The translations under genes were made by a program, and so were the position numbers. From the NCBI RefSeq assembly GCF_000724545.1, contig NZ_JHBV01000031.1:186001-250000 (forward strand): DNA of 64,000 nt. Reading direction: 5' to 3'. This stretch comes from Aureispira sp. CCB-QB1 (lineage in GTDB: Bacteria > Bacteroidota > Bacteroidia > Chitinophagales > Saprospiraceae). The notes beneath the pieces were generated by a model. It made no database searches. It was given only the letters and a program-made list of their open reading frames with translations, and was not told where the DNA came from. Below are positions 36,926-62,846 of the stretch, piece by piece (position 1 is the stretch's first letter; the number at the start of each line of letters is the position of its first letter).

Positions 36926-37022
36926 CTACTCTGTTGAAGAAAAAATGTATTGGTTTGGTTATTAGTTAGATGTGTTTTTGTCTTGAGCCTAAAAACCTAA
37001 AAAAAGCAACAGCGTATTAACA
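36926..37022. repeat. Degenerate copy of the ATTACTCCGTTG-bounded repeat
   Basis: The left end tactctgttgaa and right end gcaacagcgtatt match the inverted termini of the copies at 47.9 and 55.0 kb with a few changes. The interior gtattggtttggttattag aligns with gtattagtttgattatcag of the 55 kb copy read on the minus strand. About 97 bp, in the gap after ribD. Confidence 0.5.
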
Positions 37023-37184
37023 AAGAAAACTTCATTTTTTATAATCTGCTAAGGGCAATTGTGTACTAGCATAACGAATCTAAGTCATAAAACTCACGAA
37101 TAGGCGAGTGACAACCTAGTTATGTCTAGTGAGAGATTGTGAAATGAGCAGATGACAAACTTCTTAATACAAAAAAAATAAATC

Positions 37185-38066
37185 TTGGGCTATTTACTTT
37201 TATCAGCGAGTTGCTCGATAACCATTGTGGTTATTTTTAAGTTGTTCGACCGCTACTCAATAAATCGTTATCAAGCGATTGTTTTTAACTATCTTATTTG
37301 CGTTATTACAGGTTGTCTTACATTAGGGGCAGTCCCTTTTGAAAAAAATATGATTACGGAACCTTGGTTTCCTATTATGATTGGGCTTGGTTTTTTGTTT
37401 ATGGGTGGGTTTAACCTTATTAGTAGAACTGTTACTCATTTTGGTATGGCAGTTACATCCGTTGCACAACGAATGTCTTTAGGTCTTTCGGCCACATTTG
37501 CTATCTTATATTATGGTGAACCCTATGATGTCTTTAAAATAATAGGAATATTATTGGCCCTTTCTGCAGTTGTATTTATTAATATTCCAGATAAAAAAGT
37601 AAAAAAGACTCAAGAAGGAGATAATCAATCTTCTAAATGGTTAATACTCTATCCAGTATCTATCTTTCTAGTAAGTTCATTGATTGAAATATTATTACAA
37701 TATTTGCATGCTGTTCATGAAATGAAACCTGCCAATGAGTCCATTATTTTATTTGCTAATGCAGGAGTAGTAGGCATGATTGGTTTGATAATTTTTAGAG
37801 AAAAAATTAAACTTAAAAATATCATAGGAGGAATTATACTTGGTGTACCCAATTATTTTTCCATTTATTTTATGCTAAATGCTTTAGATAGTGGCATGGA
37901 TGGTTCAGTGGTTTATTCTTCTTGTAATATTATAATTGTAACTGGAGCAGCCTTGGTAGGGTATTTGTCGTTTAGAGAGCATTTGTCTAAGCTAAACATG
38001 GTCGGCATCTTATTGTCAATAGCAGCAATTGTCTTAATTGCTCTGTCGAATATGGAGATTATTTAG
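37185..38066 (+). CDS. EamA/DMT-family transporter
   Basis: 293 residues in about ten transmembrane helices arranged as two EamA halves (for example IVVIFKLFDRYSINRYQAIVFNYLICVI, SVAQRMSLGLSATFAILYYGEPYDVFKIIGILLALSAVVFI and, in the second half, GSVVYSSCNIIIVTGAALVGYLSFREHLSKLNMVGILLSI). Family members export amino acids, metabolites or nucleotide sugars; the cargo here is unknown. The only start in frame after the TAA at 37179 that gives a full first helix is a TTG at 37185, so initiation is probably non-ATG. Confidence 0.85.
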   Translation: MGYLLLSASCSITIVVIFKLFDRYSINRYQAIVFNYLICVITGCLTLGAVPFEKNMITEPWFPIMIGLGFLFMGGFNLISRTVTHFGMAVTSVAQRMSLGLSATFAILYYGEPYDVFKIIGILLALSAVVFINIPDKKVKKTQEGDNQSSKWLILYPVSIFLVSSLIEILLQYLHAVHEMKPANESIILFANAGVVGMIGLIIFREKIKLKNIIGGIILGVPNYFSIYFMLNALDSGMDGSVVYSSCNIIIVTGAALVGYLSFREHLSKLNMVGILLSIAAIVLIALSNMEII

Positions 38067-38475
38067 AATGAGAACTAAGGCTATGTGCTAAGGTCTTGTT
38101 TATTAACTCTTAGGTGATTTTCTTGTACAATAAATTGTGTATATTTGCCCAACTCGTATTTAGAAAAAGCTTAACAGATGATTTATAGCAGACCTATGTG
38201 TTACTTCGTGGTTTGTAGAATTTTTCTGGACGACTACTATTGTAAAATAATACTCTGCTGATTATTCCATGGGCAGTGCCTTTGTGCTATTGGTGTAAGT
38301 TTAATTGGCTGTCAATTAGTTTTTTATGCTACTACTGTATGGTTTTGACAAAGTAATGATAAAAAATATTATCCCCAATATTGATAATCAACAATTAAAA
38401 TTTGTGTAAGAAAAGAATTAAAAACATTCTTATATCAAATTCATGTTGTGAGTATCACTAATAAATCAAGTTAAA
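38067..38475. other. Intergenic region
   Basis: 409 bp. A -7-like TATATTTG followed by C lies near 38133-38140 on the plus strand, without a clean -33 partner. Words such as ttacttcgtggtt and aatactctgctg resemble pieces of the dispersed repeat family. No ORF was seen. Confidence 0.45.
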
Positions 38476-39252
38476 ATGACACGCATTTATATTGTACTGA
38501 TTTTCTGTTTTTTTGTAATTCCCACTTCTTTTGGGCAATATTATATTTTTGGTGGCTATAATTATGGCGCAATAAATATGGAAGGCTCCAATGCGGTGAT
38601 AGATGCTTTTAATGCTAGAGAAAGTCACACGATAGGACCATTGACAAACAACTTTCATGGCTATCGTTTTGGAGCAGGAAAATACAGCAAGTATACCGTT
38701 TTAGAGCTAGGATTTGGAAATTTAGTTTCTAGTCAAAAAAGTACGAATCCTAATCAATTAAAAGAAAGTGCAGAGGTAGTAGCCAATTATATGTCGGCTA
38801 CGGCACGAGCAGGGGTCAAACCTTTTCCTAAACATTATTTTACTTTTGGCGCTGCAATGCACTTGGGGGCTCAACGAATTCGTTATTCTTTTGGAGGAGA
38901 TTATCAGACACCTGTTAACAAATATGTTATTGCCCCTGAGTTTTACATTGATTATGCCATCAAAATTAAATTCTTGCTAAAAAAATCTCAAAGAGATAAG
39001 TATTACTACTTGTTGAGAATTCGCCCTTATTATCAGTTACATGCTTATTTAGAAAGCGGTAATTTTGAAGCAGAGCTCAACCAAACGCCCAACGTTGCTA
39101 TGGATGCAATAGAAGATGATATGAGTCATTTTGGATTTAATGTTTCAATTGTAATTCCATTTATAAGCGATGAGGATAGAGCTTATTTATTTACTCCCAA
39201 TAAGCGCAAGCAAAGAAAGAATAAAAAAGAGCAACCCAAAGGACGATTATAG
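38476..39252 (+). CDS. Outer-membrane beta-barrel protein, PorT-like
   Basis: 258 residues with a signal peptide (IVLIFCFFVIPTSFGQ) and alternating strands with aromatic ends, such as YYIFGGYNYGAINM, FHGYRFGAGKYSKYTVLELGFGN, HYFTFGAAMHLGAQRIRYSFGG and YYYLLRIRPYYQLHAY. This is the pattern of the 8- to 10-strand outer-membrane proteins common in Bacteroidota. The C-terminus is unusually basic (TPNKRKQRKNKKEQPKGRL), which would sit in the periplasm. Specific function unknown. Confidence 0.7.
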   Translation: MTRIYIVLIFCFFVIPTSFGQYYIFGGYNYGAINMEGSNAVIDAFNARESHTIGPLTNNFHGYRFGAGKYSKYTVLELGFGNLVSSQKSTNPNQLKESAEVVANYMSATARAGVKPFPKHYFTFGAAMHLGAQRIRYSFGGDYQTPVNKYVIAPEFYIDYAIKIKFLLKKSQRDKYYYLLRIRPYYQLHAYLESGNFEAELNQTPNVAMDAIEDDMSHFGFNVSIVIPFISDEDRAYLFTPNKRKQRKNKKEQPKGRL

Positions 39253-39351
39253 TCTTTGAAGCTAGTTGAACTTTAATTTTTTTTTAATTGTTGAAATTTA
39301 AGTTGAATGTGTGTAATGCACGTAAATAATTGATAAAAACGAACTGTAATT

Positions 39352-39771
39352 ATGATTGGTAAGTTAATAAGTCTTGTATTCTTTTTTATTGTAGGTTGGG
39401 TAGTTTACACTCAATTTTTTGGAACGAAGCAAGAACAAGCCATGGGGCAAGAGGTCATTAGCAATGCTAAGGAAACGGTACAAGGGATATTTAATATTTT
39501 TCAGCACGAAAGCGGAAAATTTAAAGAAGGTACTTATGATGATTCTATTGATAAATTAGGAGCCTTGTTGGATCGATTGCGAGAACAAGCTAAGAGCGAG
39601 GATAGTCAAGACGAAATTCAGGATTTGGTACAAGAAACCAAACGAATTAAGGAAAAAGTAGAACAATCAAAAGAAGGAGAAAATATAGATGAGGAGCAAA
39701 CCAAAGAAGATTTGAAAAAGTTGACCAAGGAAGTAGAGGAGATTGTTAATAAGATGGATAAGAAAAAATAA
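39352..39771 (+). CDS. Membrane-anchored coiled-coil protein
   Basis: 139 residues: one N-terminal transmembrane segment (IGKLISLVFFFIVGWVVYTQFFG) and a long soluble alpha-helical region very rich in Glu, Lys and Gln (LGALLDRLREQAKSEDSQDEI, RIKEKVEQSKEGENI, LKKLTKEVEEIVNKMDKKK). Heptad spacing indicates a coiled coil. No family is recognised; it may tether or space envelope components. It lies 100 bp after the beta-barrel gene on the same strand. Confidence 0.65.
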   Translation: MIGKLISLVFFFIVGWVVYTQFFGTKQEQAMGQEVISNAKETVQGIFNIFQHESGKFKEGTYDDSIDKLGALLDRLREQAKSEDSQDEIQDLVQETKRIKEKVEQSKEGENIDEEQTKEDLKKLTKEVEEIVNKMDKKK

Positions 39772-39806
39772 GACTACCAAATAAGCAACAACGTAACCGT
39801 ACGAAG

Positions 39807-39845
39807 AAAAAAGGCTATTACTCTCAAGGAGTAGTAGCCTTTTTT
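39807..39845. terminator. Bidirectional terminator
   Basis: Stem aaaaaggctattactc with gagtagtagccttttt, a 5-nt loop and A/T runs on either side. It separates convergent genes at 39771 and 39872. Confidence 0.85.
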
Positions 39846-39871
39846 AGATTGATTTGATGATTTAGCAACTC

Positions 39872-40111
39872 TTATCCAGCCTCTGCTTCAAATTCAGAAC
39901 TTTTGCTGTAATTTAAAATATTTTGGACCACAAAACTAGGTGGTTGGATATCGACTGCATCTAATAATTGTTGTGCTTTTTTTAAAGCATTGTGATTTTC
40001 CTTGATTTTAGAATCAGAATGTTTTGCTTTTTGGATAGCCATTTTTTCTAAATAATCAGTTTCTCCATAAATATCACGAACTAAATCTTCTTTTGTAATT
40101 TGATGCTTCAT
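39872..40111 (-). CDS. Small hypothetical protein
   Basis: 79 residues, helical and charged (MKHQITKEDLVRDIYGETDYLEKMAIQKA ... NALKKAQQLLDAVDIQPPSFVVQNILNYS). The layout recalls short anti-sigma or regulator-associated proteins of Bacteroidota in which a helical bundle precedes a PPxxVVQNIL motif, but I cannot claim that. The start at 40111 is preferred over 40135 because the earlier one adds only a basic stretch. A terminator on its downstream side supports it as a real unit. Confidence 0.6.
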   Translation of the reverse strand: MKHQITKEDLVRDIYGETDYLEKMAIQKAKHSDSKIKENHNALKKAQQLLDAVDIQPPSFVVQNILNYSKSSEFEAEAG

Positions 40112-40323
40112 TTTCCGGGTCGTTTTATTTTTCAAAAATAAACTGTTTGAAATTAAATTTGCTACTATATGGAAAACGCAACCTTTTGTCTAAATGTTGC
40201 ATGGGTGTCATTTTTTTTTCGGAATTTTATTTTGTATAACACCTGTTAATATTTTTATAAGATTCTTATAGGACGTCCCCCATAGTCAAAAGGTTGGAAA
40301 TATTAGCGAAAATAATAATAAGA

Positions 40324-40361
40324 AAGCCCTTTTTGCCTATAATAGAAGCAAAAAAGGGCTT
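40324..40361 (-). terminator. Terminator of the YbjN-like gene
   Basis: Stem aagcccttttt-gc with gc-aaaaaagggctt, about 45 bp beyond the stop at 40407 on the minus strand. Confidence 0.75.
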
Positions 40362-40406
40362 AAAAGTTGCCTACCTGTTATTTGTAGTAGCTTGGCTTTT
40401 AATTTT

Positions 40407-40850
40407 TTAAGCGCACTTGATCATTTTGGTTATTTTTTGTAGGTGCTGTTCCATAATAGAAATGTTGATCAATAAATTTCGTTCAACTGTTTTTTCTGAG
40501 AATGAGCGATTTTCAAAATCAATATAGGTCTTGAAATGCAAATCGCCAGAATCTGGATCTAACTCAAAGTTTCCAAAAACACGATCACTATTTAAGCACA
40601 TTAAAAAAAGAGCCATTTGATTGCGTAGGGTTAGAGGAACTTTCATTGGATGGGTAGAGTATAAACCGATGCCGCTGTGGAGCGCTCGTTTATTGGTCGT
40701 GCTATTTTTAGTTTTATTGCCTACCAAAATTAAGCATTGCCATTCTCCTTCAGGCGTTTTGACATCAAAACTCAATGCCTGGCGATCAGGGTCCGTTATA
40801 AAATCAATTCCTATCCTTTGAAAGTAACGTGTTATTTTTTGGATCATCAT
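40407..40850 (-). CDS. YbjN / type III chaperone-like domain protein
   Basis: 147 residues with the alpha-beta layout of the YbjN family: an N-terminal helix (IQKITRYFQRIGIDF), strands (ALSFDVKTPEGEWQCLILV), a HPMKVPLTLRNQMALFLMCLNSDRVFGNFELDPDSGDLHFKTYIDFEN core and a C-terminal helix (NLLINISIMEQHLQKITKMI). YbjN-like proteins share the fold of type III secretion chaperones and are thought to bind partner proteins. The partner is unknown. It is 31 bp downstream of the glucosaminidase gene, so the two form one operon. Confidence 0.75.
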   Translation of the reverse strand: MMIQKITRYFQRIGIDFITDPDRQALSFDVKTPEGEWQCLILVGNKTKNSTTNKRALHSGIGLYSTHPMKVPLTLRNQMALFLMCLNSDRVFGNFELDPDSGDLHFKTYIDFENRSFSEKTVERNLLINISIMEQHLQKITKMIKCA

Positions 40851-40881
40851 AGTATAAAAAGATTATAGTAGCCCATCAAAA

Positions 40882-41808
40882 TTATTTGTCAAATCGATCC
40901 AAATTCAATGCTTCAATAATGGCAATCAATTTGGATGCATACCTTTTGTCTGTTGCATAGCCTGCTGCTTGTAGACCATGTGCCCAGTTTTTATAATCCG
41001 TGCGTTTTAATTTAGATAAGTGTTTGTAACGAGTGTTAGATAATAACTTGCTATGTTCTCTAAAACTCTCCCAAGCAGAGTCAAAAATTCTAAACATATC
41101 GTATCGACTGTCGTCGGTATAATTGGCACAACGACAACCAAGGCATTTTTTACGGCATTTGATTCCAAAGTGATTATTTTCTTTGGCGGCAAGAGAGCTT
41201 TTGCCGGCATTGCTCTCTAACAAACCTTGTGCTAGGGTGATGCTAGCAGGAATATTGAACAAATCCGCTTCTTCTTTGGCTGTTACACTATATTTAGCAA
41301 TATAATCTGTACAAATCTTGTTTTTAACGGCTACAATTTGTGGATCTACGTTGTGTTTTTTTGCAAAGTTGGGATTCAAAATAAAACCTAAGTTAGAGTA
41401 TTGAGCAGCCTTCTTCTTTTGTTCTTCTGTTAAAGCACTACCTACTGCTGTAGCAGCATTGGCTAAATTCATTTGAGAGCGAATATCTTTGCTTTCGTCA
41501 CGAATGGTTTCCCACCATTTTTTGTCTTTAGAGGCAGTTGTACTAGATACTGTTGTAGCATAAGGAGCTACAGTATTTTGTGGGGTTTGTGATGGCGGAG
41601 GTGTTTCGACAACACTAGCTGTTTGTTGAGCTGTCCCATTGCCAATGGTAAATTGGAAGCTAAATTCTTTCTGCGTTAATACCAAAACAATTAAAATAAA
41701 GAATGCGACACGCAGCCATAGTTGCTTTGCTAGATTTTTGATTCTTTGTAGACTATCATCAACGGCTTGTTTTACCACTACGGGCAAATTTTTGTTTACT
41801 ATCATCAT
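40882..41808 (-). CDS. Membrane-anchored glucosaminidase (peptidoglycan hydrolase)
   Basis: 308 residues. A hydrophobic segment (LWLRVAFFILIVLVL, about 30-44) anchors it, followed by a Pro/Thr/Ser linker (about 60-115) and a glucosaminidase domain of the FlgJ/Atl type: LFNIPASITLAQGLLESNAGKSSLAAKENNHFGIKC has the catalytic Glu in LLESNAG. The Cys cluster KCRKKCLGCRC is typical of Bacteroidota members and may form disulfides. The end GLQAAGYATDKRYASKLIAIIE is the family C-motif. It should cleave the glycan backbone at N-acetylglucosamine. Two AAAACAAAATGTTTT palindromes stand upstream. Confidence 0.88.
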   Translation of the reverse strand: MMIVNKNLPVVVKQAVDDSLQRIKNLAKQLWLRVAFFILIVLVLTQKEFSFQFTIGNGTAQQTASVVETPPPSQTPQNTVAPYATTVSSTTASKDKKWWETIRDESKDIRSQMNLANAATAVGSALTEEQKKKAAQYSNLGFILNPNFAKKHNVDPQIVAVKNKICTDYIAKYSVTAKEEADLFNIPASITLAQGLLESNAGKSSLAAKENNHFGIKCRKKCLGCRCANYTDDSRYDMFRIFDSAWESFREHSKLLSNTRYKHLSKLKRTDYKNWAHGLQAAGYATDKRYASKLIAIIEALNLDRFDK

Positions 41809-41863
41809 AATTAATGCATTTTATATTGTCTATAATGTCTTTTTGTTATCACATTACAAATGT

Positions 41864-41915
41864 AAAACAAAATGTTTTAAAAATAAAAGAAATCAAAAAC
41901 AAAATGTTTTAAAAA
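41864..41915. promoter_or_regulatory. Tandem palindromes AAAACAAAATGTTTT upstream of the glucosaminidase
   Basis: Identical 15-bp sites at 41864-41878 and 41896-41910, each followed by AAAAA. Their starts are 32 bp apart, about three helical turns, so bound proteins would lie on one face. They stand 56-107 bp upstream of the start codon. A two-mismatch copy precedes the S24 repressor. Confidence 0.5.
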
Positions 41916-42002
41916 GTGCAAAAAATAAATTTGATAGTGTTTTTGGAGGTTTGTTAGGGTGTTTTTTGAAAATTTTGAAACAAAAAAATGTATTTATAAA
42001 TA

Positions 42003-42030
42003 AAAAAGAGCCCTCGAAAGGGCTCTAAAA
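42003..42030 (-). terminator. Terminator of the small membrane protein gene
   Basis: 8-bp GC-rich stem (agagccct with agggctct) with a UUCG loop on the minus strand and a U-run. Confidence 0.85.
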
Positions 42031-42071
42031 ATTACAAAATTATTTCTTATTAAACTTAGCAGACTGTGTAT

Positions 42072-42461
42072 CTAGCCCATCATAACACTAATAAGAGGAA
42101 ATAAGATATTCCACAACGCAGCAGCAAAAAATAAAGAAATCGTTACTCGAGTTGTCAAATTACCTACATTGGCAACCATGCCTGCTATAAACAGTGACAT
42201 ACCACCAAATAGATAAATAGAAAATCCAATTCCAGCTCCACCAAAATTTAGCATTGTATAGATAGCTAGAGGCATAAACAAACAAGGTAGAATTAAAGCA
42301 GGAAATAAGAACCAAGTCATTCTATATTTCATTTGATTGTCACAAAAATCCAAGTATCGTTCAATAATACCTCTGTTGGTTGTAGTTGTTGTTGCTGTTT
42401 TAGTAGTGACATCTTTTTGAGGTAATGTCTTATGTTCGGTTTTTGCAGCTATCGTATTCAT
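42072..42461 (-). CDS. Small hypothetical membrane protein
   Basis: 129 residues. After a Thr-rich N-terminus (ATTTTTNRG) there are three hydrophobic segments: WFLFPALILPCLFMPLAIYTM (about 50-70), GIGFSIYLFGGMSLFIAGMVA (about 76-96) and VTISLFFAAALWNILFPLISV (about 106-126). I recognise no family. It has its own terminator and lies between two terminators, so it is probably monocistronic. Confidence 0.7.
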   Translation of the reverse strand: MNTIAAKTEHKTLPQKDVTTKTATTTTTNRGIIERYLDFCDNQMKYRMTWFLFPALILPCLFMPLAIYTMLNFGGAGIGFSIYLFGGMSLFIAGMVANVGNLTTRVTISLFFAAALWNILFPLISVMMG

Positions 42462-42565
42462 GACTTGTTTGTTTTTGCATTAATTAATAACTCAAAGATA
42501 GGTTATGAGATGGTGCAAATTGTTGATAAAAGTCACTTCTAGAGATGATTGTGGTCATTCTAAAA

Positions 42566-42608
42566 AAAAGTAGGAGAAGCCCCTTTAACGAATGCTTCTC
42601 CTACTTTT
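42566..42608 (-). terminator. Terminator of the dipeptidyl peptidase gene
   Basis: Perfect 15-bp stem (aaaagtaggagaagc with gcttctcctactttt) and a 13-nt loop, 20 bp past the stop. Confidence 0.9.
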
Positions 42609-42627
42609 AGAAACGATAATTGTTATT

Positions 42628-44772: not shown

Positions 44773-45108
44773 GGTGTTATTTTTCTTGTTGAAATAAATG
44801 AATGGGCTATGAAATTTTGAGATTTCTTATAACGCATTGTATTGATCAAATATACAAACTAAATACCAGATTTGAATTCAATTTCTACTAAAGTGTACAA
44901 TTGATAGATGCGTGTATTAAAGCGACTGAATACTTATAGGGGAATCAACGAAAGTGCTTAAGGATTGAGAGAAGGAACCAAGAGAAAGTGCACAAGGAGT
45001 TATTACCAAACCAAGCACACTCAGTCGGTACAGTATAAGTTCATACGATCTTATCAAAAAAAGATAACTTGGTTTGCAAGACAATAACCTATTTTACAGC
45101 TCTTGAAG
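44773..45108. other. Intergenic region
   Basis: 336 bp between two minus-strand genes. A -7-like element (CAAATATA on the plus strand, about 44847-44854) may serve the dipeptidyl peptidase gene, but the -33 position is poor. No terminator of the upstream gene and no ORF were seen. Confidence 0.4.
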
Positions 45109-46173: not shown

Positions 46174-46516
46174 AGAACGTAAGAATGGTTTTTGATGGTT
46201 GGATAGCGTATTTTTCGAATACTAATCCGATAATAAATGTTACAAAGATAAAGGAAAGCGATAGGAAATCGTAATAAATTTTATCGTTTTTGGGTTAAGT
46301 GCTTGATTGTTTGGTTCAATAACTACGAAATATTTCAAGAAAAAATGCTTCAGAATATTCTGATAAAAGAACTAATAAGCAGGAAATGCCAGTGGCTTTT
46401 CGTTCGTTTTAGAGCAAACAAAAGGCTGCCTGACTTATTTTCAGACAGCCTCCCAAATTTAGTAGCTTTTGTTAATTTTTCTTTTGCATCTTGCTTCGAA
46501 AAGCATATGAATGTGG
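46174..46516. other. Intergenic region with the tpx terminator
   Basis: 343 bp. Besides the hairpin at 46423-46451 there is nothing I can support; an 81-codon plus-strand frame here looks accidental and runs through the terminator. Confidence 0.5.
46423..46451 (-). terminator. Terminator of tpx
   Basis: Stem aggctgcctga with tcagacagcct, one mismatch, with a T-run on the minus strand. Confidence 0.75.
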
Positions 46517-47827: not shown

Positions 47828-47904
47828 GTTAATTGGTGTGTTTGGTTTGGTTATGAACTAGTGATGGATGAATTACCCAAGGTTAGTTATACAGTTGTTT
47901 AACT

Positions 47905-48280
47905 CATTACTCCGTTGAAAAAACGCATTAGTTTAGCTGCGCTGCTACTTCGTGGTACTTCGTGAGCGCTACGCTTTTAGTTAGTTTTGTTGCCACTACG
48001 TGGTATTGCATAAGTACTTCGCAGTTGATTATTAGCAAGATATATTTCTGTTGGTCTTTATGTTAAAAGACTGATAATTAAATTAGTGCAAGGTGGTTTT
48101 TATGTTTTTTGTAGAAAAACTAAAAAACTAAGCTTGCCGAGTAGGCTTGTGCTAGTAGCACAAAAGCCCAAGTTCATGACCAGAGGGAACTAGCCTTGCG
48201 CTCTCATGAGCGAACCGAGCATAGCGAGCTCACGACCGTAGGGAGTAACAAAGCGAATAATAATCAACGAAGTATTATTA
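47905..48280. repeat. Composite 375-bp intergenic repeat with ATTACTCCGTTG ends
   Basis: Left end attactccgttga (47905-47917), right end tcaacgaagtatt, an inverted match with one change. 48027-48131 aligns closely with the minus strand of the 55 kb copy, including ttaaaagactg and gtagaaaaac. The left part holds an extra module with gctacttcgtgg, and 48208-48256 shares its gcgaaccgagc...gtagggagtaac block with 25230. No ORF of worth lies inside. Confidence 0.7.
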
Positions 48281-48311
48281 ACTATCAAAAAGGACAGGAT
48301 GCTAAGATGAA

Positions 48312-53301: not shown

Positions 53302-53428
53302 AAAATGCGTTGAATGTTAACAAAAAATGATTCAAACGCAAAATGGACGAAAGGCACCAAATCTCCATGACTTGTTTCAAAGTATAGCAAAAAATAGCTA
53401 TTGGATACTATTTGATATTGAATAACAA

Positions 53429-54562: not shown

Positions 54563-54618
54563 ATAATTGTTAGACAGCTTGTTTTGAATATTGGAGAGTA
54601 AATACAAAATTATAAACA

Positions 54619-55044
54619 ATGTCCGATAAATATAAGAAGAATCCTTTACTTGATGAACATTTGGTGGATATACCCGATGAGCGATCTATTTTAGATAAAT
54701 ATCTTTGGATTAGGGGAGTAGCCTTGCTGGTCTTATGTACGCTAATTGGATGGATCAGTGTGCTGTTTCGCCCTTATTTTCAAAATGGTGTTCATATAGA
54801 AGCAATTGTCTCCTTGGTGATGGTAGCAACAATTAATTTAGGTTTGCTGGTGTATATAATACGTCAAAAACGCAAACAATATAAATTGGCGTATCTCATT
54901 GGTACGACCGCAATTTGGCTAGGTTATACCATAGGATGGGCGTTGGGTTTAGGACATCTTTGGGAAGATGTTTTGGTAATGAATACCATCGGCGCACTAG
55001 CAGGCTTGGGAATTGGACAATTTGTCTTTTATTATAGACAATAA
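54619..55044 (+). CDS. Small hypothetical membrane protein
   Basis: 141 residues: a soluble acidic N-terminus (MSDKYKKNPLLDEHLVDIPDERSIL) and four hydrophobic segments (GVALLVLCTLIGWISVLF, EAIVSLVMVATINLGLLVYII, LAYLIGTTAIWLGYTIGWALGL, VLVMNTIGALAGLGIGQFVF). Divergently transcribed from the neighbouring polytopic protein. No family is recognised. Confidence 0.65.
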   Translation: MSDKYKKNPLLDEHLVDIPDERSILDKYLWIRGVALLVLCTLIGWISVLFRPYFQNGVHIEAIVSLVMVATINLGLLVYIIRQKRKQYKLAYLIGTTAIWLGYTIGWALGLGHLWEDVLVMNTIGALAGLGIGQFVFYYRQ

Positions 55045-55190
55045 TACTCCGTTGCTTTTTTACGTTTTTCTACGAAAAACGTAAAAAAGCATCTTGTATT
55101 AGTTTGATTACCAGTCTTTTAGTGTAAAGGTTGGTGAGGTTCATCTTGCTGATAATCAAACTAATACGATTTTTCAACGGAGTAATGACA
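55042..55190. repeat. Structured 149-bp copy of the ATTACTCCGTTG-bounded repeat
   Basis: Termini atactccgttg (55043) and caacggagtaat (about 55178-55189) are inverted. Inside, gtattagtttgatta and taatcaaactaatac form a perfect 15-bp inverted repeat, and gcttttttacgttttt with its exact complement forms a 16-bp hairpin with a 5-nt loop. Read on the minus strand the core aligns with 48027-48131. It begins at the stop codon of the upstream gene, so it may also act as that gene's terminator. Confidence 0.75.
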
Positions 55191-55257
55191 CAACAAAAAG
55201 GCTACTATTGGTTTGGCTATTAACCTGCTTGCTGCACTATAATTAATTTTAACCAAT

Positions 55258-57162
55258 CTATTGCCAATCCCAAGCTGAGCCATAGGCTCCTTGTGCATCG
55301 ACATAGTCCAAGAAATTACTATAAAAAGTGTCGCTGGCTAAAGTCGCACTATCTCCAATAACAATTAACTTTTTCTTAGCTCTGGTCATGGCTACATTCA
55401 TTCGGCGAGTATCTTTTAAAAAGCCGATTTCTCCCATATCGTTCGAGCGAACCATTGAAATATAAATAACGTCTCGTTCTTGTCCTTGAAAAGCATCAAT
55501 TGTGTTAACTTCAATATCGGCATCAGGAAAATGATCAAAGTCTTTGACAATCGCATCTTGAATCGAAATAACTTGTTCTCGATAGGGCGAAATAATGCCA
55601 ATAGAAATCGGCTGGTTTCCTGTAATCACTAGCAGGTTGTCTAAATGCTGCCGCAAGACAAAGTACTCTTCTGGATTATAATAACTCTGAGATTCGGGGT
55701 TGACTTTTTCTTCAAAACCACATCCTGCGGTATCTATAAATTCTAAGGGGGGACTGGGAGTACCATCCGAAAATTGTAGTTGCCAAGTAGCAACCGCATC
55801 GTCGGATTGCAATTGTCCATCATAAAATTGCTCATTAGAAAACCCCATAATGGTATTGTGCATTCTATATTGAGTATCTAATAAATTGACAACGTCTAAA
55901 CGTTGAACCCCTTTTTCTAGCAGCGTTACATTAAAGCCATTTTTAGCAGCAGCACTACTTTTGACAGTTGGAGGCAATTGAAATGGATCGCCAGCAAAGA
56001 CAACTTTGTTGGCTTTGCAGATTGGAATCCAAGTAGCAGGCTCTAAGGCTTGTGCTGCCTCGTCAATTATTACGGTATTAAATGTCATTTTCTCGATGTG
56101 TCGCCCAACTGCCCCTACCAAGGTGCTACAAATGACGTCCGCTTCACGCAAGGTTTTGTCAATAATATAGTCTTCAAGCATCTTGGCTTGATACATTAAA
56201 TCCTTGGCCTCTCTATAATTGTCTCGGCGATCTTGGCGTTCTTTGGCACCAAACTTTCGTTTAAATTTCTCCGCATCTCTTCGCATTTTAGCAGCTTCAA
56301 TCTTCATTTTTTTGACCTCTTGTATTTCAGGAAGCCGTTGAAGAATACCTTCCATTGTGTGTTCTAAGAGGCTTTCATCAACTCTAGAGATATTACCAAT
56401 ACGAACGACATTTAGCCCTACGCTGGCTAATTTTTCGGTTAACAAATCAGTAGCTGAATTAGAAGGGGCGCAAACTAAAATAGGCGACTCACGTTTGACC
56501 AACTGTTGAATGGCCGCAACTAAAGTGGTTGTTTTTCCTGTACCTGGAGGACCATGAATAATGGCAACATCTTCTGCTGCTAAGATCGTTTGCACGGCTG
56601 CATTTTGAGAAGCATTTAGTTTGGGTATTTCAAAGGGATGATGCTCTTTGTCAAAACGGGCTGGCTGTTTGCCTAATAAAATCTCTCGCAATTCTGCTAG
56701 TCGATCATTCTTGGCTGCTTTTACTGTTTTAACAGCACGCTCCATTTCTTGATAACTGCGTTCATCAAAATTGAGTTGAATACCAATTTTACCACCCAAA
56801 ACCCAACGAGGCAATTGCGTCCCGTACAAAATAATTTTCATACGATTACCCTTGATAAAATAAATGACTCCTTTTTCCTCTACATTATTATCCAGTACCT
56901 TTTCGGAAAAAATACTGACCACTTGTCCAGAGCGGAATTTATGCGCTTTGTCCAAGTGCTTGACTCGTTCTACAATAATAAAAGGATGTTCCCCTAAACT
57001 CCATCCTGAGCTTTCAACTTGTACAGGATACCAACAAGCACCTTTTTGAATACGTTGCTGGATGCTCAATTCTCGGAGCAGTTGGTCAAATTGACGGCTT
57101 TCCTCTTCTTTTTCTTGTTGTAATAATTGGAGTAAATGATCTAATTCTTCTTGCGTTGTCAT
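55258..57162 (-). CDS. DNA2/NAM7-family helicase (IGHMBP2-like)
   Basis: 634-residue superfamily 1B helicase. The N-terminal OB-like part (ACWYPVQVESSGWSLGEHPFIIVERV) precedes the two RecA folds. Motif I is VAIIHGPPGTGKTTTLVAAI, motif II IIDEAAQALEP, motif III AGDPFQLPPTV, then LDTQYRMHNTIMGFSN, NTIDAFQGQERDVIYISMV and NVAMTRAKKKLIVIGDS. An alpha-helical stalk (about 265-310, MKKMKIEAAKMRRDAEKFKRK) is inserted as in IGHMBP2 and related RNA/DNA helicases. It probably unwinds RNA, R-loops or DNA 5'-3'. Confidence 0.93.
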   Translation of the reverse strand: MTTQEELDHLLQLLQQEKEEESRQFDQLLRELSIQQRIQKGACWYPVQVESSGWSLGEHPFIIVERVKHLDKAHKFRSGQVVSIFSEKVLDNNVEEKGVIYFIKGNRMKIILYGTQLPRWVLGGKIGIQLNFDERSYQEMERAVKTVKAAKNDRLAELREILLGKQPARFDKEHHPFEIPKLNASQNAAVQTILAAEDVAIIHGPPGTGKTTTLVAAIQQLVKRESPILVCAPSNSATDLLTEKLASVGLNVVRIGNISRVDESLLEHTMEGILQRLPEIQEVKKMKIEAAKMRRDAEKFKRKFGAKERQDRRDNYREAKDLMYQAKMLEDYIIDKTLREADVICSTLVGAVGRHIEKMTFNTVIIDEAAQALEPATWIPICKANKVVFAGDPFQLPPTVKSSAAAKNGFNVTLLEKGVQRLDVVNLLDTQYRMHNTIMGFSNEQFYDGQLQSDDAVATWQLQFSDGTPSPPLEFIDTAGCGFEEKVNPESQSYYNPEEYFVLRQHLDNLLVITGNQPISIGIISPYREQVISIQDAIVKDFDHFPDADIEVNTIDAFQGQERDVIYISMVRSNDMGEIGFLKDTRRMNVAMTRAKKKLIVIGDSATLASDTFYSNFLDYVDAQGAYGSAWDWQ

Positions 57163-57838
57163 AAGATGGTAACGATGCTCTAAAATATAGAGTTTGGTAA
57201 TAAATCTTTGATATCTAAAAAGCCGAAGTTAAAGAGAAAAGTAGACTTATTGTGCTTGAATAGCTTATTGATTTTTTAGTTTTTGGCTTGTAAGGGGGGA
57301 AGAGGATCAGTTTTAGTTATTAAGAAATATAAAAAACTAGCTTGATAAGTACTTAAAGGGCAAAATAATACAAGAACTTTTGAGAGCAGGTGTTTAAATC
57401 CTCGAGGGGAGATGATTGGACCTTGTTTGTAAATACACAGGTATTTTACAAGTAAATTCAGGATACCTCAACAAATAGTGAAATTAAGCTGTTAGGTTTT
57501 ATAGATTCTTTTTTATGAAAGAGTATATTGTGGTCTATTTGCAAATGATAAGAATGATTATGAACTCTATTATTATAGAATCTCTGTTTTGTGATAATTG
57601 TTCGCCTACAAAATTGAATGCCACATTAAATCAAGAAAAATAAATATAAACAGAGATTAACATACAGAGACGTAAATAAGAGTTTTATAATAGAAAATAA
57701 GCATTTTTCTTAGAAAAGTGCAAGTTTTGTTGCAACTTAACAAGTTGATAGGTGGATTGTAATTTATTACATGTATAGAGGCAAGAAATCTATCCACAAA
57801 TGAAATAAGAAGTTTTATCTAACGAAAATACTAGAACA
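57163..57838. other. Intergenic region, no gene seen
   Basis: 676 bp between the helicase and the MlaE-like permease, oriented divergently. AT-rich; gaagc-like hairpins are absent and no tRNA fits. A palindromic piece gttgcaac with surrounding aagtt/aactt occurs near 57725-57750, but its role is unclear. Confidence 0.45.
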
Positions 57839-58576
57839 TTGAATTTGTTTTTCCATTTTGGTCGTTATATACTATTTATCAAGAATATGTTTTCTCGACC
57901 AGAGAAAGTATCCATGTATTGGAAAGAGACGACCCGACAGATGATCGATATCGGAATTGGGTCATTGGTTATTGTTGGTTTGGTTTCCGTTTTTATTGGC
58001 GCTGTAACAGCCATACAGTTTGCTTATCAATTAGGCGGTTCTTCGATTCCTAAATATTACATTGGTTATATTGTGCGGGATATCATGATTATCGAATTAG
58101 CACCAACATTTACCTGTTTAGCATTGGCGGGAAAAGTCGGTTCTAATATTGCCGCCGAGTTAGGAGGGATGCGCCAAAAAGAGCAAATTGATGCGCTAGA
58201 AGTTATGGGAGTAGATACAACTGCTTATTTGGTCATGCCTAAAATAATAGCTGCGGTTACAGTGATTCCAATGTTGGTGGTATTGTCTGCTTTTATGGGA
58301 ATGGCTGGAGGTTATGTGGCGTGTACGGTTGGTAATTTAGTATCAGAAGCTGAATTTATGCAGGGGTTAAGAGCATTCTTTGATCCGTATAATATTTGGA
58401 TGATGGAAATCAAGGCATTGGTTTTTGCCTTTTTATTAACCTCTATCTCTTGTTATCAAGGTTTCTTTGTAACAGGCGGTAGTATTGAGCTAGGGCGAGC
58501 AAGTACCAGTGCCGTAGTAATTAGTAATATTCTAATTCTATTGGCAGATTATGTCTTGGCATTGCTCTTAACTTAA
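57839..58576 (+). CDS. MlaE-family ABC transporter permease
   Basis: 245 residues of the MlaE/YrbE lipid-transport permease: an N-terminal amphipathic helix (LFFHFGRYILFIKNMFSRPEK), then about five transmembrane helices with IDIGIGSLVIVGLVSVFIGAV, AGKVGSNIAAELGGMRQKEQIDALEVMGVD (the conserved coupling loop) and GRASTSAVVISNILILLADY. With its ATPase it should move phospholipids across the envelope. The frame has no ATG before the first helix; the TTG at 57839 is preferred over an ATG at residue 17 because family members include this leading helix. Confidence 0.92.
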   Translation: MNLFFHFGRYILFIKNMFSRPEKVSMYWKETTRQMIDIGIGSLVIVGLVSVFIGAVTAIQFAYQLGGSSIPKYYIGYIVRDIMIIELAPTFTCLALAGKVGSNIAAELGGMRQKEQIDALEVMGVDTTAYLVMPKIIAAVTVIPMLVVLSAFMGMAGGYVACTVGNLVSEAEFMQGLRAFFDPYNIWMMEIKALVFAFLLTSISCYQGFFVTGGSIELGRASTSAVVISNILILLADYVLALLLT

Positions 58577-58610
58577 TCATTAAAATAGGTTTAAAATTTA
58601 GATATTTAGC

Positions 58611-59378
58611 ATGATTCGTATTGAAGATATTAAAAAGCAATTTGGTGACCAGAAGGTTTTGAAGGGAGTCTCTACTGTATTTGAGCATGGTAAAACCAAT
58701 TTGATTATAGGTAAATCGGGTGCAGGAAAAACTGTTATGCTCAAAATTTTGGTGGGATTGATCCAGCCAACCTCTGGAACCGTTTGGTATGGAGATACTA
58801 ATTTTACGGCACTAACAACCAAACAAAGAAAGGCAATTCGGACAGAAATGGGAATGCTTTTTCAAGGATCTGCTTTGTTTGACTCTATGACTGTAGAAGA
58901 AAACGTGCGCTTCCCATTGGATATGTTTACTAAGTTGACTAAAAAAGAAAAACAAAAAAAAGTAGATCAAACGCTTGAACGGGTAGAGTTAAAAGGAAGT
59001 AATAATAAATATCCTTCGGAGGTAAGTGGTGGAATGCAGAAGCGTGTTGGTATCGCCCGTGCAATTATATTAGACCCTAAGTATTTGTTCTGTGATGAAC
59101 CTAACTCTGGTCTAGACCCTACAACCTCAATGAAAATAGATGAACTAATTCGCAATATTACCAAAGAAAACAAAATTACAACTGTGATCAATACACATGA
59201 TATGAATTCGGTGATGGAAATAGGAGACAATATTAACCTACTGCATCTAGGAGAATTAGCATGGGTAGGAACTCGGCACGAAGTGATGACGAGCGAAAAT
59301 GAATTATTGCAAGATTTTATATTTGCTTCGCCATTTTTACAGCGATTACGAGATGCTGCCACCAATAAGAATGCATAA
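58611..59378 (+). CDS. MlaF-family ABC transporter ATPase
   Basis: 255-residue ATP-binding subunit. Walker A GKSGAGKTVML, Q-loop MLFQGSALFDSMTV, signature VSGGMQKRVGIARAI, Walker B YLFCDEPNSGLDP and H-loop NTHDMNSVMEIGD. QGSALFDSMTVEENV and the GMQKR signature are characteristic of the Mla group. It is 34 bp after the permease and forms an operon with it. The MCE-domain partner (MlaD) does not follow in this window. Confidence 0.95.
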   Translation: MIRIEDIKKQFGDQKVLKGVSTVFEHGKTNLIIGKSGAGKTVMLKILVGLIQPTSGTVWYGDTNFTALTTKQRKAIRTEMGMLFQGSALFDSMTVEENVRFPLDMFTKLTKKEKQKKVDQTLERVELKGSNNKYPSEVSGGMQKRVGIARAIILDPKYLFCDEPNSGLDPTTSMKIDELIRNITKENKITTVINTHDMNSVMEIGDNINLLHLGELAWVGTRHEVMTSENELLQDFIFASPFLQRLRDAATNKNA

Positions 59379-59612
59379 TTAAAAAAGGCATACCTTAGCT
59401 TCTAAAAGGCTTTTAAAGCTTATTTTTTGTATTGTTTCAAGTGTTTTTTTCAAAACGATACCTTTTTCCATTTTGGAAAAGGTTGTTCTTTTTTGGGGTT
59501 TTGTTGGAAATTTGTAATCTATAATATGTTGATTTTTAGAATTTTGTGCTTTGGGAATGATTTTTTCTTTATTAGAGATAAATCCCCTGTATATTACTAA
59601 ATATCCCTTACA

Positions 59613-59996
59613 ATGAATACAAAATTTCGGATACTCGTTATATTCTCTCTTGTATTGTCTGTTGTTTTTTCAACAACAAAAATCTACGCCAATACTCCAA
59701 CGACAACGCCAACTACCTCTGTTTCAGAGGATAAAACAACGCTTCGTTTTATTGTTTATTATAGTGGTGATCTATCTCCCGTATTAAATGACAAAGATAG
59801 CTACATGAAGACCTTTATGGATGTGTATAATCTAACATTAATTAGCACATTCAAAATAGATGAGACCAACAGTGGTTTTACCTTGGAGGCAAAAGAAGCA
59901 CTTGATTTTCCAACCGAAGTCGCTAGAGAAATCTCATTGATTACAAATGTTTTGATGGTAGAAGTAACACGTGTTCCTACCACAAGAGAAAGTTAA
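59613..59996 (+). CDS. Hypothetical exported protein
   Basis: 127 residues with a signal peptide (RILVIFSLVLSVVFSTTKIYA) and a Thr/Pro-rich linker (NTPTTTPTTSVSEDKTT). The mature part is alpha/beta (LRFIVYYSGDLSPVLNDKDSYMKTFMDVYNLTLISTFKI ... ALDFPTEVAREISLITNVLMVEVTRV) and could be a small binding domain. Unrecognised. It is 234 bp after the ABC ATPase, without proof of linkage. Confidence 0.6.
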   Translation: MNTKFRILVIFSLVLSVVFSTTKIYANTPTTTPTTSVSEDKTTLRFIVYYSGDLSPVLNDKDSYMKTFMDVYNLTLISTFKIDETNSGFTLEAKEALDFPTEVAREISLITNVLMVEVTRVPTTRES

Positions 59997-60276
59997 TCTT
60001 TGACCCATTATCGACAATAGCATACTTAATTTCTCGAAAATACTTCTTTTCTAGAGGTAATACTAGATGCTTTTTTTTCATAGAATGCCATGCATTCTAT
60101 CTAATTCATTTCTCTATTTAGACAGACACTAAAAATTATTCGTCTGTAGGTAATCCAAAGCAATCGTATCATCAAAATTGGCAAAAATCAAAAGTAGAGT
60201 GTTTTAGTATGAGAACTTTTGGACGATGACTTCTTTCTAGTAGATAGGATGTAAATGACCTCCAAAAATAAAAGCA

Positions 60277-60786
60277 ATGAAATACTATTTACCAACCTCC
60301 CTTTTTTTTCTGTGTATTCTATTTTTTTATAGCTGTGATTCTACGCCTCCGACTAATCCAAATCCTAAGGAGCTAGGAGTAGTATTTCCAGATGCGTCGT
60401 ATACTAGCGTTATTGCTTACCATTTTGAAGATTTGGAAGGCAATCCAATTATTAGCAAAGAGGGAATACTAAACCCTACCATCAAAAAAGAAAAGGTATT
60501 GTCTGAGGAAGAAATTCAAGTTTTTCTAAAGACAATTAATGATCCTAAAACTTATGGCGGGCTTTATACAAGGTGTTTTAAACCGAGATTAGGGCTTGTG
60601 TTTTACAACGAAGATAAAGCAGTTGCTCATATTAGTATCTGTTTTGAATGCTCTCAGCAGATGGCTTTTCCTCAAATAAAAGCTTATGCCAAAGCTCCTC
60701 AAGGAGAACATGGTTATAGTGAAGCTGGCTTTCGGAAGTTAACTAGTTTTTGCCATGAATTGGGCTTTGGTCAATGTGGAGAATAA
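60277..60786 (+). CDS. Hypothetical lipoprotein
   Basis: 169 residues with a lipobox (LFFLCILFFYSC, Cys20) and a Pro/Asn-rich start after it (DSTPPTNPNPKE). The soluble domain has paired cysteines (YTRCFKPRLGLVFYNEDKAVAHISICFECSQQ, FCHELGFGQC). The FYNEDKAVAHISICFECSQ element looks like a conserved core of small Bacteroidota lipoproteins, but I cannot name a family. It is probably in the outer membrane facing the periplasm or outside. Confidence 0.65.
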   Translation: MKYYLPTSLFFLCILFFYSCDSTPPTNPNPKELGVVFPDASYTSVIAYHFEDLEGNPIISKEGILNPTIKKEKVLSEEEIQVFLKTINDPKTYGGLYTRCFKPRLGLVFYNEDKAVAHISICFECSQQMAFPQIKAYAKAPQGEHGYSEAGFRKLTSFCHELGFGQCGE

Positions 60787-60926
60787 AGAATGGTTATTCT
60801 TTACTCCTTGAAAATTAGTTTACTTATAGGTCTATTCTTATAACTTCCCTTTCTCTTTTTCGTATAAATGTCTGCCAAATTGACTTCTACAATATACCTG
60901 ACAGTAGGAAACAAAATTTATAATGG

Positions 60927-61346
60927 ATGAAGGACTTTTTTTACACCATATTTCTAATCTGTATATCGATAACCTCTGTACAGGCGCAAAATACAAGCTA
61001 CAAAAGCTACGAAAACACCCTTGACTCTTTTGCCAAAGCATCGGTAAACAATCTTAGCTTTCAAAATGGGATTTATATTTTTATAGAAAAGCCAGAAAGT
61101 GATGAAGATGCTTTATACAAAGGGTTTAGAGTGACACATACTGATGGGGAATACAATGGAGGGTGGGAGATATTAGCTGCAAAAGATATTGTAATCAAAG
61201 AGAAAATCCCATTGCATTTTAGAGCTGTTTTATATTTGTTTAAAAATAAACAATATATTGCATTGTATAAAGAGGATTCAAACAACAAGTATTATTTTAG
61301 AATCTTTAAAGCTGTTTACTCCTCTCCGCGAAGTACTACCCCATAA
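60927..61346 (+). CDS. Hypothetical exported protein
   Basis: 139 residues with a signal peptide (FFYTIFLICISITSVQAQ). The mature part (ENTLDSFAKASVNNLSFQNGIYIFIEKPESDEDALYKGF ... HFRAVLYLFKNKQYIALYKEDSNNKYYFRIFKAVYSS) is beta-rich. Unrecognised. The stop lies 22 bp before the ATG of the next gene, so the two are likely one operon. Confidence 0.6.
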   Translation: MKDFFYTIFLICISITSVQAQNTSYKSYENTLDSFAKASVNNLSFQNGIYIFIEKPESDEDALYKGFRVTHTDGEYNGGWEILAAKDIVIKEKIPLHFRAVLYLFKNKQYIALYKEDSNNKYYFRIFKAVYSSPRSTTP

Positions 61347-61368
61347 CAACAGTTTAAATTTTAACAAT

Positions 61369-61881
61369 ATGCGCCACCAATTAATTCTATTGTTCTATGG
61401 ACTTGTTATCATTAGCTCGCTGGTAGGAGCTTATATTTTTATTGGTTATCATACAACCAAACAAACTGATTTTACAACCAAAGAGGGAGTTGTACAAGGT
61501 GTCTTAATGATATCTAAGGACGAATATGGGGAAGATGTTGGCTTGCGTTTTAGGTTAGAGGATAGCGATGTAGAATATGTTCTGGCGGGGAAGCTTTTGG
61601 AAATTACGCACCCAGATATTCACCAGTTAAAAGAAGGAGATTCTATTCGGGTTTGGGTAAAAACAGTGGCAGCACAGAATTACTTGGATAAATCTATGGC
61701 ACATATGAATGCCATTTGGGGGATTCAACGTCTGACAGATGGGCTAATTTTATTGGCTTTGGAGGATGCTATTCATCAACGAAGTGGGCTGCAATATTTG
61801 GGTTTTGTCGTGCTATTTATTTTAACAGCGAGTGTTTTTTCTTTCTTTTTTTATCGAAAAGTCAAATTGCATAAAAAGTAA
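61369..61881 (+). CDS. Hypothetical bitopic/polytopic membrane protein
   Basis: 170 residues with an N-terminal transmembrane helix (LILLFYGLVIISSLVGAYIFIGY) and a C-terminal one (GLQYLGFVVLFILTASVFSFFFY). The periplasmic part is beta-rich (EGVVQGVLMISKDEYGEDVGLRFRLEDSDVEYVLAG), like DUF3592-type envelope proteins. The start is the ATG at 61369; a longer frame from 61258 overlaps the previous gene. It ends 6 bp before the acetyltransferase start, forming an operon. Confidence 0.65.
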   Translation: MRHQLILLFYGLVIISSLVGAYIFIGYHTTKQTDFTTKEGVVQGVLMISKDEYGEDVGLRFRLEDSDVEYVLAGKLLEITHPDIHQLKEGDSIRVWVKTVAAQNYLDKSMAHMNAIWGIQRLTDGLILLALEDAIHQRSGLQYLGFVVLFILTASVFSFFFYRKVKLHKK

Positions 61882-61887
61882 CTAAGG

Positions 61888-62718
61888 ATGGAAATAAGAG
61901 ATTTGAGTAACTGCTCATTAGAAGAAATTGTTTTTGCTATGTTGATGGCGTTTGAGGAGTATTTTTTAAAAATGCCTTCTGATACAACTTATTGGAAACA
62001 TCGCTATCAGGCGGCTAGAGTAGACTGGACGTGTTCTTTCGGGATGTTTGACCAAGGAGAGTTAATTGCTTTTATTATTAACGGAATTGATGAAAGGGGG
62101 ACTCATAGAGTGGCGTTTAATACAGGAACAGGGGTGATAAAAAAATACCGTGGTCAGAAAATAGTTGACCAACTGTATGCTTATGCTTTTCCTATCTTGC
62201 AACAAAAAGGGGTAACTTGTTGTGCACTGGAAGTTATTCAAGAAAACAGCCGTGCCATTCGAGTGTATGAACGAATCGGCTTTTCGATTACAAAGGAGTA
62301 CCTCTGTTTTACAGGAAAATTGGAGGTTTCAAATTATGAAACAACAATCCATAAAATTGATTTTGAAAAAATTACCAATCCACAAGCTAATTGGTATGCT
62401 TGGGACAATTCCAATAGAGCAATACAATTGAGTTCAAAGGGCACTTATACCTGTTACGAGGTTTTTTCTTTGGCTAAAGAAAAAATTGGCTTTTTTGTTA
62501 TCAATGAACAATCTGGAAATTTACCTCAATTTGAGATTTATAAAACGAATCAACAAGAGGATTGGCAACTTCTTTTTGATGGCATCGCTCAAGTAAGTAG
62601 AACAATTAGGACTATTAATATTGATGCTAAACGAACGGATATATTGCAAACCTTGCGTTACTTAGGCATGGAGAATAGCATTAACCAATATGAAATGGAG
62701 CTAAAAATGAAACCATAG
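61888..62718 (+). CDS. GNAT acetyltransferase with extra C-terminal domain
   Basis: 276 residues. The first GNAT domain is clear: TGTGVIKKYRGQKIVDQLYAYAFPILQQKG (acetyl-CoA loop) and ENSRAIRVYERIGFSITKEY (motif B). The second half (YETTIHKIDFEKITNPQANWYAWDNSNRAIQLS to RTINIDAKRTDILQTLRYLGM) repeats the topology without a strong acetyl-CoA motif, as in double-GNAT proteins. The substrate is unknown. It is translationally close to the membrane protein upstream. Confidence 0.8.
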   Translation: MEIRDLSNCSLEEIVFAMLMAFEEYFLKMPSDTTYWKHRYQAARVDWTCSFGMFDQGELIAFIINGIDERGTHRVAFNTGTGVIKKYRGQKIVDQLYAYAFPILQQKGVTCCALEVIQENSRAIRVYERIGFSITKEYLCFTGKLEVSNYETTIHKIDFEKITNPQANWYAWDNSNRAIQLSSKGTYTCYEVFSLAKEKIGFFVINEQSGNLPQFEIYKTNQQEDWQLLFDGIAQVSRTIRTINIDAKRTDILQTLRYLGMENSINQYEMELKMKP

Positions 62719-62766
62719 TGATTGCTAGTAATAAAGAGAGAACCAGTATGGTATCTTATTGAAATC

Positions 62767-62846
62767 ATTACTCCGTTATAAAATCGTAGTAGCACCGTAG
62801 GTAACTAAGCGAAGCGATCTCATAAAATAATCAACGGAGTATTATG
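62767..62846. repeat. Short ATTACTCCGTTA-bounded repeat copy
   Basis: attactccgtta at 62767 and its inverted counterpart tcaacggagtat near 62830-62843 bound about 80 bp. The interior gtagtagcaccgtaggtaac...gcgaagcgatctc resembles the insertion module of the 47.9 kb copy rather than the 55 kb core. It stands directly upstream of the next gene. Confidence 0.6.

Follow-up and report, generated by a model that had tools for sequence, protein, structure and literature searches.

Dispersed repeats of Aureispira: very probable miniature transposons of an ISDra7-like insertion sequence family, with a variable hairpin loop and variable cassettes

This work concerns a family of short repeats in a 64,000-nucleotide stretch of the genome of Aureispira sp. 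CCB-QB1 (contig NZ_JHBV01000031.1, positions 186,001 to 250,000), referred to here as the window. We conclude with high confidence that the repeats are miniature non-autonomous transposons (miniature inverted-repeat transposable elements, MITEs) of an IS4-like, ISDra7-like insertion sequence (IS) family in Aureispira. A MITE together with its IS family is the ordinary part of this system. The unusual part is a three-armed fold that is kept in three families of element, a hotspot of transitions that arise in place, and the exact turnover of small hairpin cassettes.

A previous examination of the letters of the window (the sequence-only reading) had described four repeat copies with inverted ends, and offered two readings, a non-autonomous element that has dispersed or a structured RNA. 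The former is borne out by target duplications, by empty sites in a second strain of the same species, and by an insertion sequence with matching ends. The latter stands in part: a covarying fold is common to three families (A, B and D), and its working form may be RNA or single-stranded DNA.

Copy number, ends and target duplications

In the window alone the ends are modestly enriched, with 11 sites at up to two mismatches where 4.6 are expected, a number matched in one of 100 shuffles. That the termini exceed chance is decided by the whole genome (G000, a 7.37 Mb draft in 184 contigs). Here ATTACTCCGTTG occurs exactly 85 times and AATACTCCGTTG 96 times, against one occurrence of each reversed control, and at one mismatch the 13-mer occurs 290 times against 25 for the control. 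Since these counts are far above the controls, the repeats are real. Together these 181 exact ends form 127 clusters. A BLAST search with the copy at 55042 likewise recovered the additional copies expected of a dispersed element: at least 66 matches, of which at least 34 span at least 146 of 149 bases and at least 26 are short inverted pieces, these being lower bounds from the 40 of 328 first-look candidates that were scored.

Using a finder restricted to such pairs, 98 distinct copies were found in which a C end (CATTACTCCGTTG) is paired with an inverted T end (TAATACTCCGTTG). They are 29–314 bp long, and 25 are exactly 146 bp. Among convergent pairs up to 520 bp apart in the list of exact ends, 50 of 51 are also C/T and one is T/T; the elements are bounded by an asymmetric pair of ends. 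They are short, with terminal inverted repeats and, judged from length only, no coding capacity. An exact flanking direct repeat of at least 6 bp is present in 64 of the 98 copies and one of at least 5 bp in 75, where mispaired flanks give 1.1 and 1.8. The target-site duplication thus has a fixed size of 6 bp, and the targets are AT-rich and mostly intergenic. The claim that the repeats always lie between genes is nearly right: when the flanks are joined (each time with 6 bp removed, even where no 6-bp repeat exists), six of the 98 sites fall in an open reading frame of at least 80 residues; for positions drawn at random from these loci the share is 56%. The genes around the copies are in tandem in 51 cases, divergent in 35 and convergent in nine, with three copies at an edge; these counts have no control.

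Besides family A there is a family B, with the ends CAATAGTTCGTTG and TAGTAGTTCGTTG, 146-bp copies on the same plan, and the same type of duplication. Family D (CATTACTTCGTGG) is also present, as are a few copies with related ends. Two copies (L048 and L140) are hybrids that combine an A end with a B end, a sign that the ends may be exchangeable. A 32-bp element near position 2500 of locus L158 consists of the two ends only (CAATACTCCGTTG..CAACGGAGTATTA). Such very short copies raise the question of whether a 32-bp piece can itself be moved, or whether longer copies have collapsed.

In GTDB genomes, a pattern of the 25-base core finds at least 56 stretches, and among the matches listed all are in uncultured Aureispira except for one Sulfurovum contig. 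That contig (CACVAR010000311.1) carries an Aureispira-type element and comes from the same metagenome with similar coverage, so that its assignment to Sulfurovum is likely to be a binning error. In a search of 60 relatives, five genomes match: four of the eight from the genus (G000, G001, G003 and G006), which have elements, and G053, over 34 bases only. A ninth genus genome (G060) was added later. A search of one open-access literature collection for Aureispira repeats or insertion sequences gave nothing on point among the matches listed.

Movement between strains and species

In G006 and G003 the intergenic region orthologous to that around 47905 lacks the element, and in G006 and G001 the same is true of the region around 55042. 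No base-exact empty sites were obtained in these other species, because the intergenic DNA is too diverged. The base-exact comparison was therefore made with G060, a genome of the same species in two contigs. An assessable pair was obtained there for 30 of the 38 tagged elements: 22 sites are filled, two are filled with larger internal changes, and six are empty, each keeping one copy of the 6-bp repeat (L034, L035, L038, L040, L054 and L056). Among the empty sites, L056 is set in a stretch of A, and identity in the left flank of L038 is just 92%. Two of the eight loci that had no assessable pair (L014 and L023) were later seen to be filled. The reverse case also occurs: a G060 copy flanked by ATATTC (L358) is missing from G000, which has a single ATATTC, and all 146 bp of it agree with a second G060 copy (L355). 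In total 26 of the 29 G060 copies that fit the pattern match the G000 loci examined. Copies have therefore moved since the two strains separated.

A candidate driver

A scan of 14 DDE transposase loci for element-like ends, followed by reading of locus L287, identified the autonomous partner with shared ends that had been sought. It is a single-copy IS of 1,365 bp in G000 (L287, positions 1282–2646), with CAATACTTCGTTGAAGTATTA at both ends, a TTATGC duplication of 6 bp, and a gene for a DDE transposase of 429 residues. Compared with this IS end, the A end has mismatches at two of 15 positions and the B end at one of 15. The transposase scores above the cut-off for Pfam DDE_Tnp_1, and an annotated ISDra7 transposase is 31% identical to it (tblastn), which would tentatively place it with the ISDra7-like or IS701-like branch of the IS4 superfamily; a sequence search of the PDB gave no match at E 0.1. 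G003 contains a broken relative with 41% identity in the part that matches; it is bounded by CAATACTTCGTTGAA and CAATAGTTCGTTAAA, the former being the IS-type end of the candidate family. Of five plasmid relatives, four carry such ends, CAATA(C/G), together with 6- or 7-bp duplications: two are from Persicobacter and one each from Bacteroides finegoldii and Segatella copri, although the two ends of the S. copri relative differ at four of 15 positions.

On the basis of these sequences, the driver is likely to be an insertion sequence family of this IS4-like (ISDra7-like) kind. From the matching ends and the duplications, we infer that a transposase of the L287 type would bind the ends of the elements in trans, and that the elements would be inserted with a 6-bp stagger. 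Unlike ISDra7-like insertion sequences, the elements themselves are gene-free.

Several observations weigh against this proposal. Both ends of the L287 IS are of C type, and the T end of the elements (TAATA/TAGTA) has no exact partner on it. The transposase falls below the NCBIfam cut-offs for the IS701 and IS4 models (92 bits for IS701_3, cut-off 170), and the ISDra7-type copy of Deinococcus showed no end pair under the thresholds used. An intact transposase gene is found in only one of the nine genus genomes, G000. G003 has the broken copy and G006 a fragment, and no gene was found at E 1e-5 in G060, G001, G002, G004, G005 or G007. Yet there is a private insertion in G060, and copies are numerous in G001, so that another source of transposase, or one since lost, must have served these two. 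Finally, 23 of the 98 end pairs have no exact duplication of 4–11 bp, though 12 of these match at five of six positions.

Other candidates for the partner were rejected. An IS-sized end pair in G003, taken from the exact-end lists, spans an sbcD-like gene. The only IS-sized pair bounded by a duplication in 1.34 Mb (overlapping loci included), at L244, proved to be two neighbouring elements that share ATCTAA. In G060, six IS families with DDE_Tnp_1 transposases have ends of an unrelated kind. Nor do PF01609 genes as a group track the elements: they occur in five of the nine genus genomes, including element-free G002 but not element-rich G001.

Three further observations concern these loci. A family-B element directly adjoins the sole intact IS copy found in G000 (L287:1031–1254, plus strand). 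In G003, the element ends that flank the sbcD-like gene are at L106:3430–4800, the left one being apparently a one-ended remnant with the repeat TCTTAG. There are 42 DDE_Tnp_1 matches in the two contigs of G060 and three in the G000 draft, where the low count is probably due to the collapse of repeats.

A three-armed fold

A fold of three arms and about 146 nt, with covariation, is kept in families A, B and D. Four copies (one each of A, B and D, and an A copy of G003) fold in this way with z-scores of -8.7 to -10.7. In 15 diverse copies of 139–152 nt, 95.5% of the cells of a 43-pair structure are paired, and 17 of the 43 pairs have changes on both sides, 10 of them in the main hairpin alone. 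None of 500 shuffles was as high on any of five measures, and sliding the partners lowers pairing to 37–52%. The covariation in the main hairpin is more than the terminal repeats of a transposase would require.

Two points count against the full structure. It was derived from one aligned copy, which favours it in the sliding test. The unaided consensus fold, with 34 pairs of which 15 have two-sided changes, consists of the outer stem and the main hairpin, with only five pairs of the second hairpin. A strand-specific structure was considered on the basis of the excess of G-T over A-C pairs in the stems (106 against 16), and was rejected: the signal is weak and comes mostly from three columns, with G-T present at 13 pair positions and A-C at 12. 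An Rfam 15 search of positions 30000–64000 of the window gave zero families at the gathering score.

The inverted repeats would be able to extrude as hairpins or cruciforms, and the stems may be maintained by selection or by correction of one arm from the other.

The main-hairpin loop

The strain comparison has 52 rows and covers 51 elements (one element, at L155, is entered twice), of which six sites are empty and 45 are filled. The loops of family A show 50 transitions and four transversions in 806 sites between G000 and G060, whereas the flanks show 58 and 25 in 17,550 sites. The transition rate in the loop is thus about 19 times that in the flanks (p 5e-39), and the ratio of transitions to transversions also differs (p 0.0013). 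The claim rests on family A, because the family-B numbers count the L155 element twice; the non-loop class includes the loops of elements in which the loop was not recognised. The loop therefore changes in place, and almost only by transitions.

Copies within a single genome vary in the same manner (Ts, transitions; Tv, transversions). The loop has 135 Ts and 13 Tv in 864 sites in G000 (rest of the element 35 and 26 in 2,640), 66 and 1 in 432 in G060 (rest 17 and 3 in 1,320), 49 and 14 in 540 in the metagenome-assembled genome (MAG) HLG_10 (rest 18 and 0 in 1,650), and 22 and 3 in 180 for family B of G000 (rest 5 and 0 in 550). In the ten copies of MAG B3_96 the loop has 41 and 3 in 360 and the rest 1 and 0 in 1,100. 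In these sets 45 of the 146 columns are fixed by the selection of copies with a 25-mer and end pattern, so that only about 650 of the 1,100 sites in B3_96 are free to vary. G003 has no copies under this pattern. Every distinct copy in each set has a distinct loop, the identical pair L355 and L358 being counted once. With the majority base taken as the old base, the changes are roughly strand-symmetric, C:G to T:A being somewhat favoured.

Errors of sequencing or assembly in repeats could in principle produce differences between strains, and G000 is a draft in many contigs. This is nevertheless an extremely improbable explanation, as transition-rich variation also separates the copies within each of four genomes, the empty sites are exact, and loops swapped in assembly would match other copies, which among those recognised none do.

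A more serious alternative is gene conversion among copies, which would account for the differences in both loops and cassettes without local hypermutation or movement of cassettes. The loop changes are mostly at columns already variable between copies, and they are spread over loci more widely than a Poisson distribution allows (mean 2.3, variance 4.7). Two loci with 9–10 changes at once (L013 and L045) could be conversions. On the other hand, 15 of the 17 ungapped strain pairs differ at only 0–4 loop sites, against a mean of 8.5 for two copies taken at random. Common variable columns beside the loop (78, 92 and 120) changed 0 times in the 17 pairs, with about six changes expected from their heterozygosity. 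The loop has 39 of the 48 changes, more than the 65.5% expected (p 0.022), and no changed loop matches another recognised copy, given that L355 and L358 are the sole pair of identical segments within a genome. Conversion would also leave the transition bias of the pool of variants unexplained. The unchanged markers beside the loop and the small number of loop differences per pair make conversion less likely as the main cause, and overall we regard it as rather unlikely.

For change of the loop in place, we suggest that extrusion would leave a loop of about 35 nt single-stranded, and so exposed to base damage or mispairing. In one open-access collection, searches on hypermutation by transitions in the loops of hairpins, or on MITEs of modular build, gave reviews and other MITEs among the matches listed. 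With dozens of copies in each genome, and with its flanks as internal controls, the loop offers a natural record of how a hairpin that can extrude mutates. It would make it possible to test in living bacteria whether single-strandedness is the cause of faster mutation, and why the changes are nearly all transitions.

Hairpin cassettes

In 14 of the 45 filled strain pairs the two copies differ by cassettes of 20–33 nt. The difference is of 20 nt, in hairpin 2, at L133, L014, L043, L047 and L144; of 22 nt at L139, L171, L057, L155, L070 and L038 (in the last within a B terminus); of 26 nt again at L038; and of 33 nt at L011 and L071. Larger pieces differ at L112. With L112 left out, the pieces are flanked, as aligned, by repeats of 1–3 nt, mostly TT, TA or AA. 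Equal 2-nt flanks are found in 17 of 18 cassettes of kind m20, 21 of 35 of mX, 11 of 11 of mY, four of five of mZ2, two of three of m22c, and all seven of two 33-nt kinds, against a background of 7.5%, although the boundaries were set after alignment. For kind mZ the figure is 0 of 11 as bounded, and TT/TT appears only after the edge is shifted by one base.

Cassettes are gained or lost at shared slots with short flanking repeats, and may move independently. Such a pattern could arise when a cassette inserts and makes a short duplication, when one is deleted between short repeats, or by conversion. The last of these has some evidence here, in that slots are common to several copies and the A/B hybrid ends point to exchange. 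In addition, at the B copies L155 and L070 a longer right-hand tract changed along with the cassette type, and the change in other cassette sequence there is what replacement would give. Cassettes may thus come and go through events at short repeats, through conversion with another copy as donor, or by inserting themselves; the causes proposed for both the loop changes and the cassette turnover are our interpretation of these patterns.

The boldest interpretation, which we put forward only tentatively and consider doubtful, would be a mobile system at two levels. A three-armed element moved by a transposase would expose a loop that is a hotspot of transition-biased hypermutation in place, and would itself host mobile hairpin cassettes with cores of about 18–31 nt and duplications of about 2 bp. 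If this is true, the cassettes would be among the smallest mobile units known. In any event they provide a case in which to ask by what route units of about 20 nt come and go so precisely.

The fold, the loop and the cassettes might instead belong to a retroelement, a structured RNA copied by reverse transcriptase, with RNA editing and template switching generating the loop changes and the cassettes. This would suit the covarying arms, the asymmetric ends, the excess of G-T pairs and the resemblance of cassettes to template jumps. We consider it very unlikely, since insertion sequences with like ends and 6- to 7-bp duplications occur in several genera, editing of one strand would not give loop changes that are roughly strand-symmetric once polarised, the G-T excess is confined mostly to a few columns, and the private G060 copy is exactly equal to another copy.

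Comparison with known systems

A parallel for a MITE driven by an insertion sequence is RUP of Streptococcus pneumoniae, a 107-bp element with 108 intergenic copies for which IS630-Spn1 was deduced to be the driver from the shared ends (PMC2229807). RUP differs from the Aureispira elements in its TA target and IS630 partner, and passages of that review describe no hypermutation of a loop or exchange of cassettes. The Correia/NEMIS and ERIC elements are folded and about 100–200 bp long, and NEMIS has forms of 107 and 155 bp that are a 50-bp internal piece apart; as described there, their termini have a TA motif (PMC2229807). The Aureispira elements have many small cassettes, in several slots, that change within a species. 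In its discussion of drivers the 2007 review names RUP as the exception among the MITEs that it covers, many bacterial MITEs having no known driver (PMC2229807). For the Aureispira elements we can point to a likely driver family, to the target duplication and to recent movement.

The nearest likeness to the cassettes is found in Nostoc, where Elhai et al. in 2008 reportedly described small dispersed repeats (SDRs, 21–27 nt) as hairpin units of about 20 nt nested in miniature transposons. Compared by description only, the Aureispira cassettes differ in that repeats of 1–3 nt (mostly 2) flank nearly every unit. REPINs, the elements associated with RAYT, are usually defined as lacking a target duplication. 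The Aureispira elements, unlike these, show clear duplications of 6 bp, and the IS that matches their ends encodes a DDE transposase. Both groups appear in passages of PMC3116915, in which SDRs are named and REPINs are treated as short hairpin-forming repeats thought to be mobilised in trans.

Elements in the window

All four copies listed by the sequence-only reading are present, with slightly shifted coordinates, together with one that it had missed and a further probable one (Table 1). It had described three copies as sharing an alignable core, in both orientations. By eye the first three do align, but the first lacks the taaaagactg motif, and the fourth has nothing but cassette sequence between its ends.

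Table 1. Repeat elements of the window
Element	Position	Strand	Ends and flanks
Family-B type element, previously missed	25203-25285	+	Left end CAATAGGTCGTTG; right end decayed; flanks ACTCAA/ATTCAA (5/6); limits by eye
Decayed family-A element, internal deletion	36924-37019	+	Ends with 2+2 mismatches; flanks ACAAG/ACAAAG; limits by eye
Probable decayed copy, previously missed	38248-38358	-	Ends with 3+2 mismatches; flanks 5/6
Family-A element, long form, several cassettes	47905-48277	+	Perfect 6-bp duplication TTAACT at 47899-47904 and 48278-48283
Family-A element, full 146-bp form	55042-55187	-	Flanks TTGTGT/TTGTCT, 5/6
Family-A element, short form: two ends and cassette sequence	62766-62844	+	Flanks 5/6

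The G060 counterpart of the 55042 copy has TTGTCT on both sides and is adjoined by an older partial element. A deletion between two like ends in the strain of the window can explain why its flanking repeat is imperfect there.

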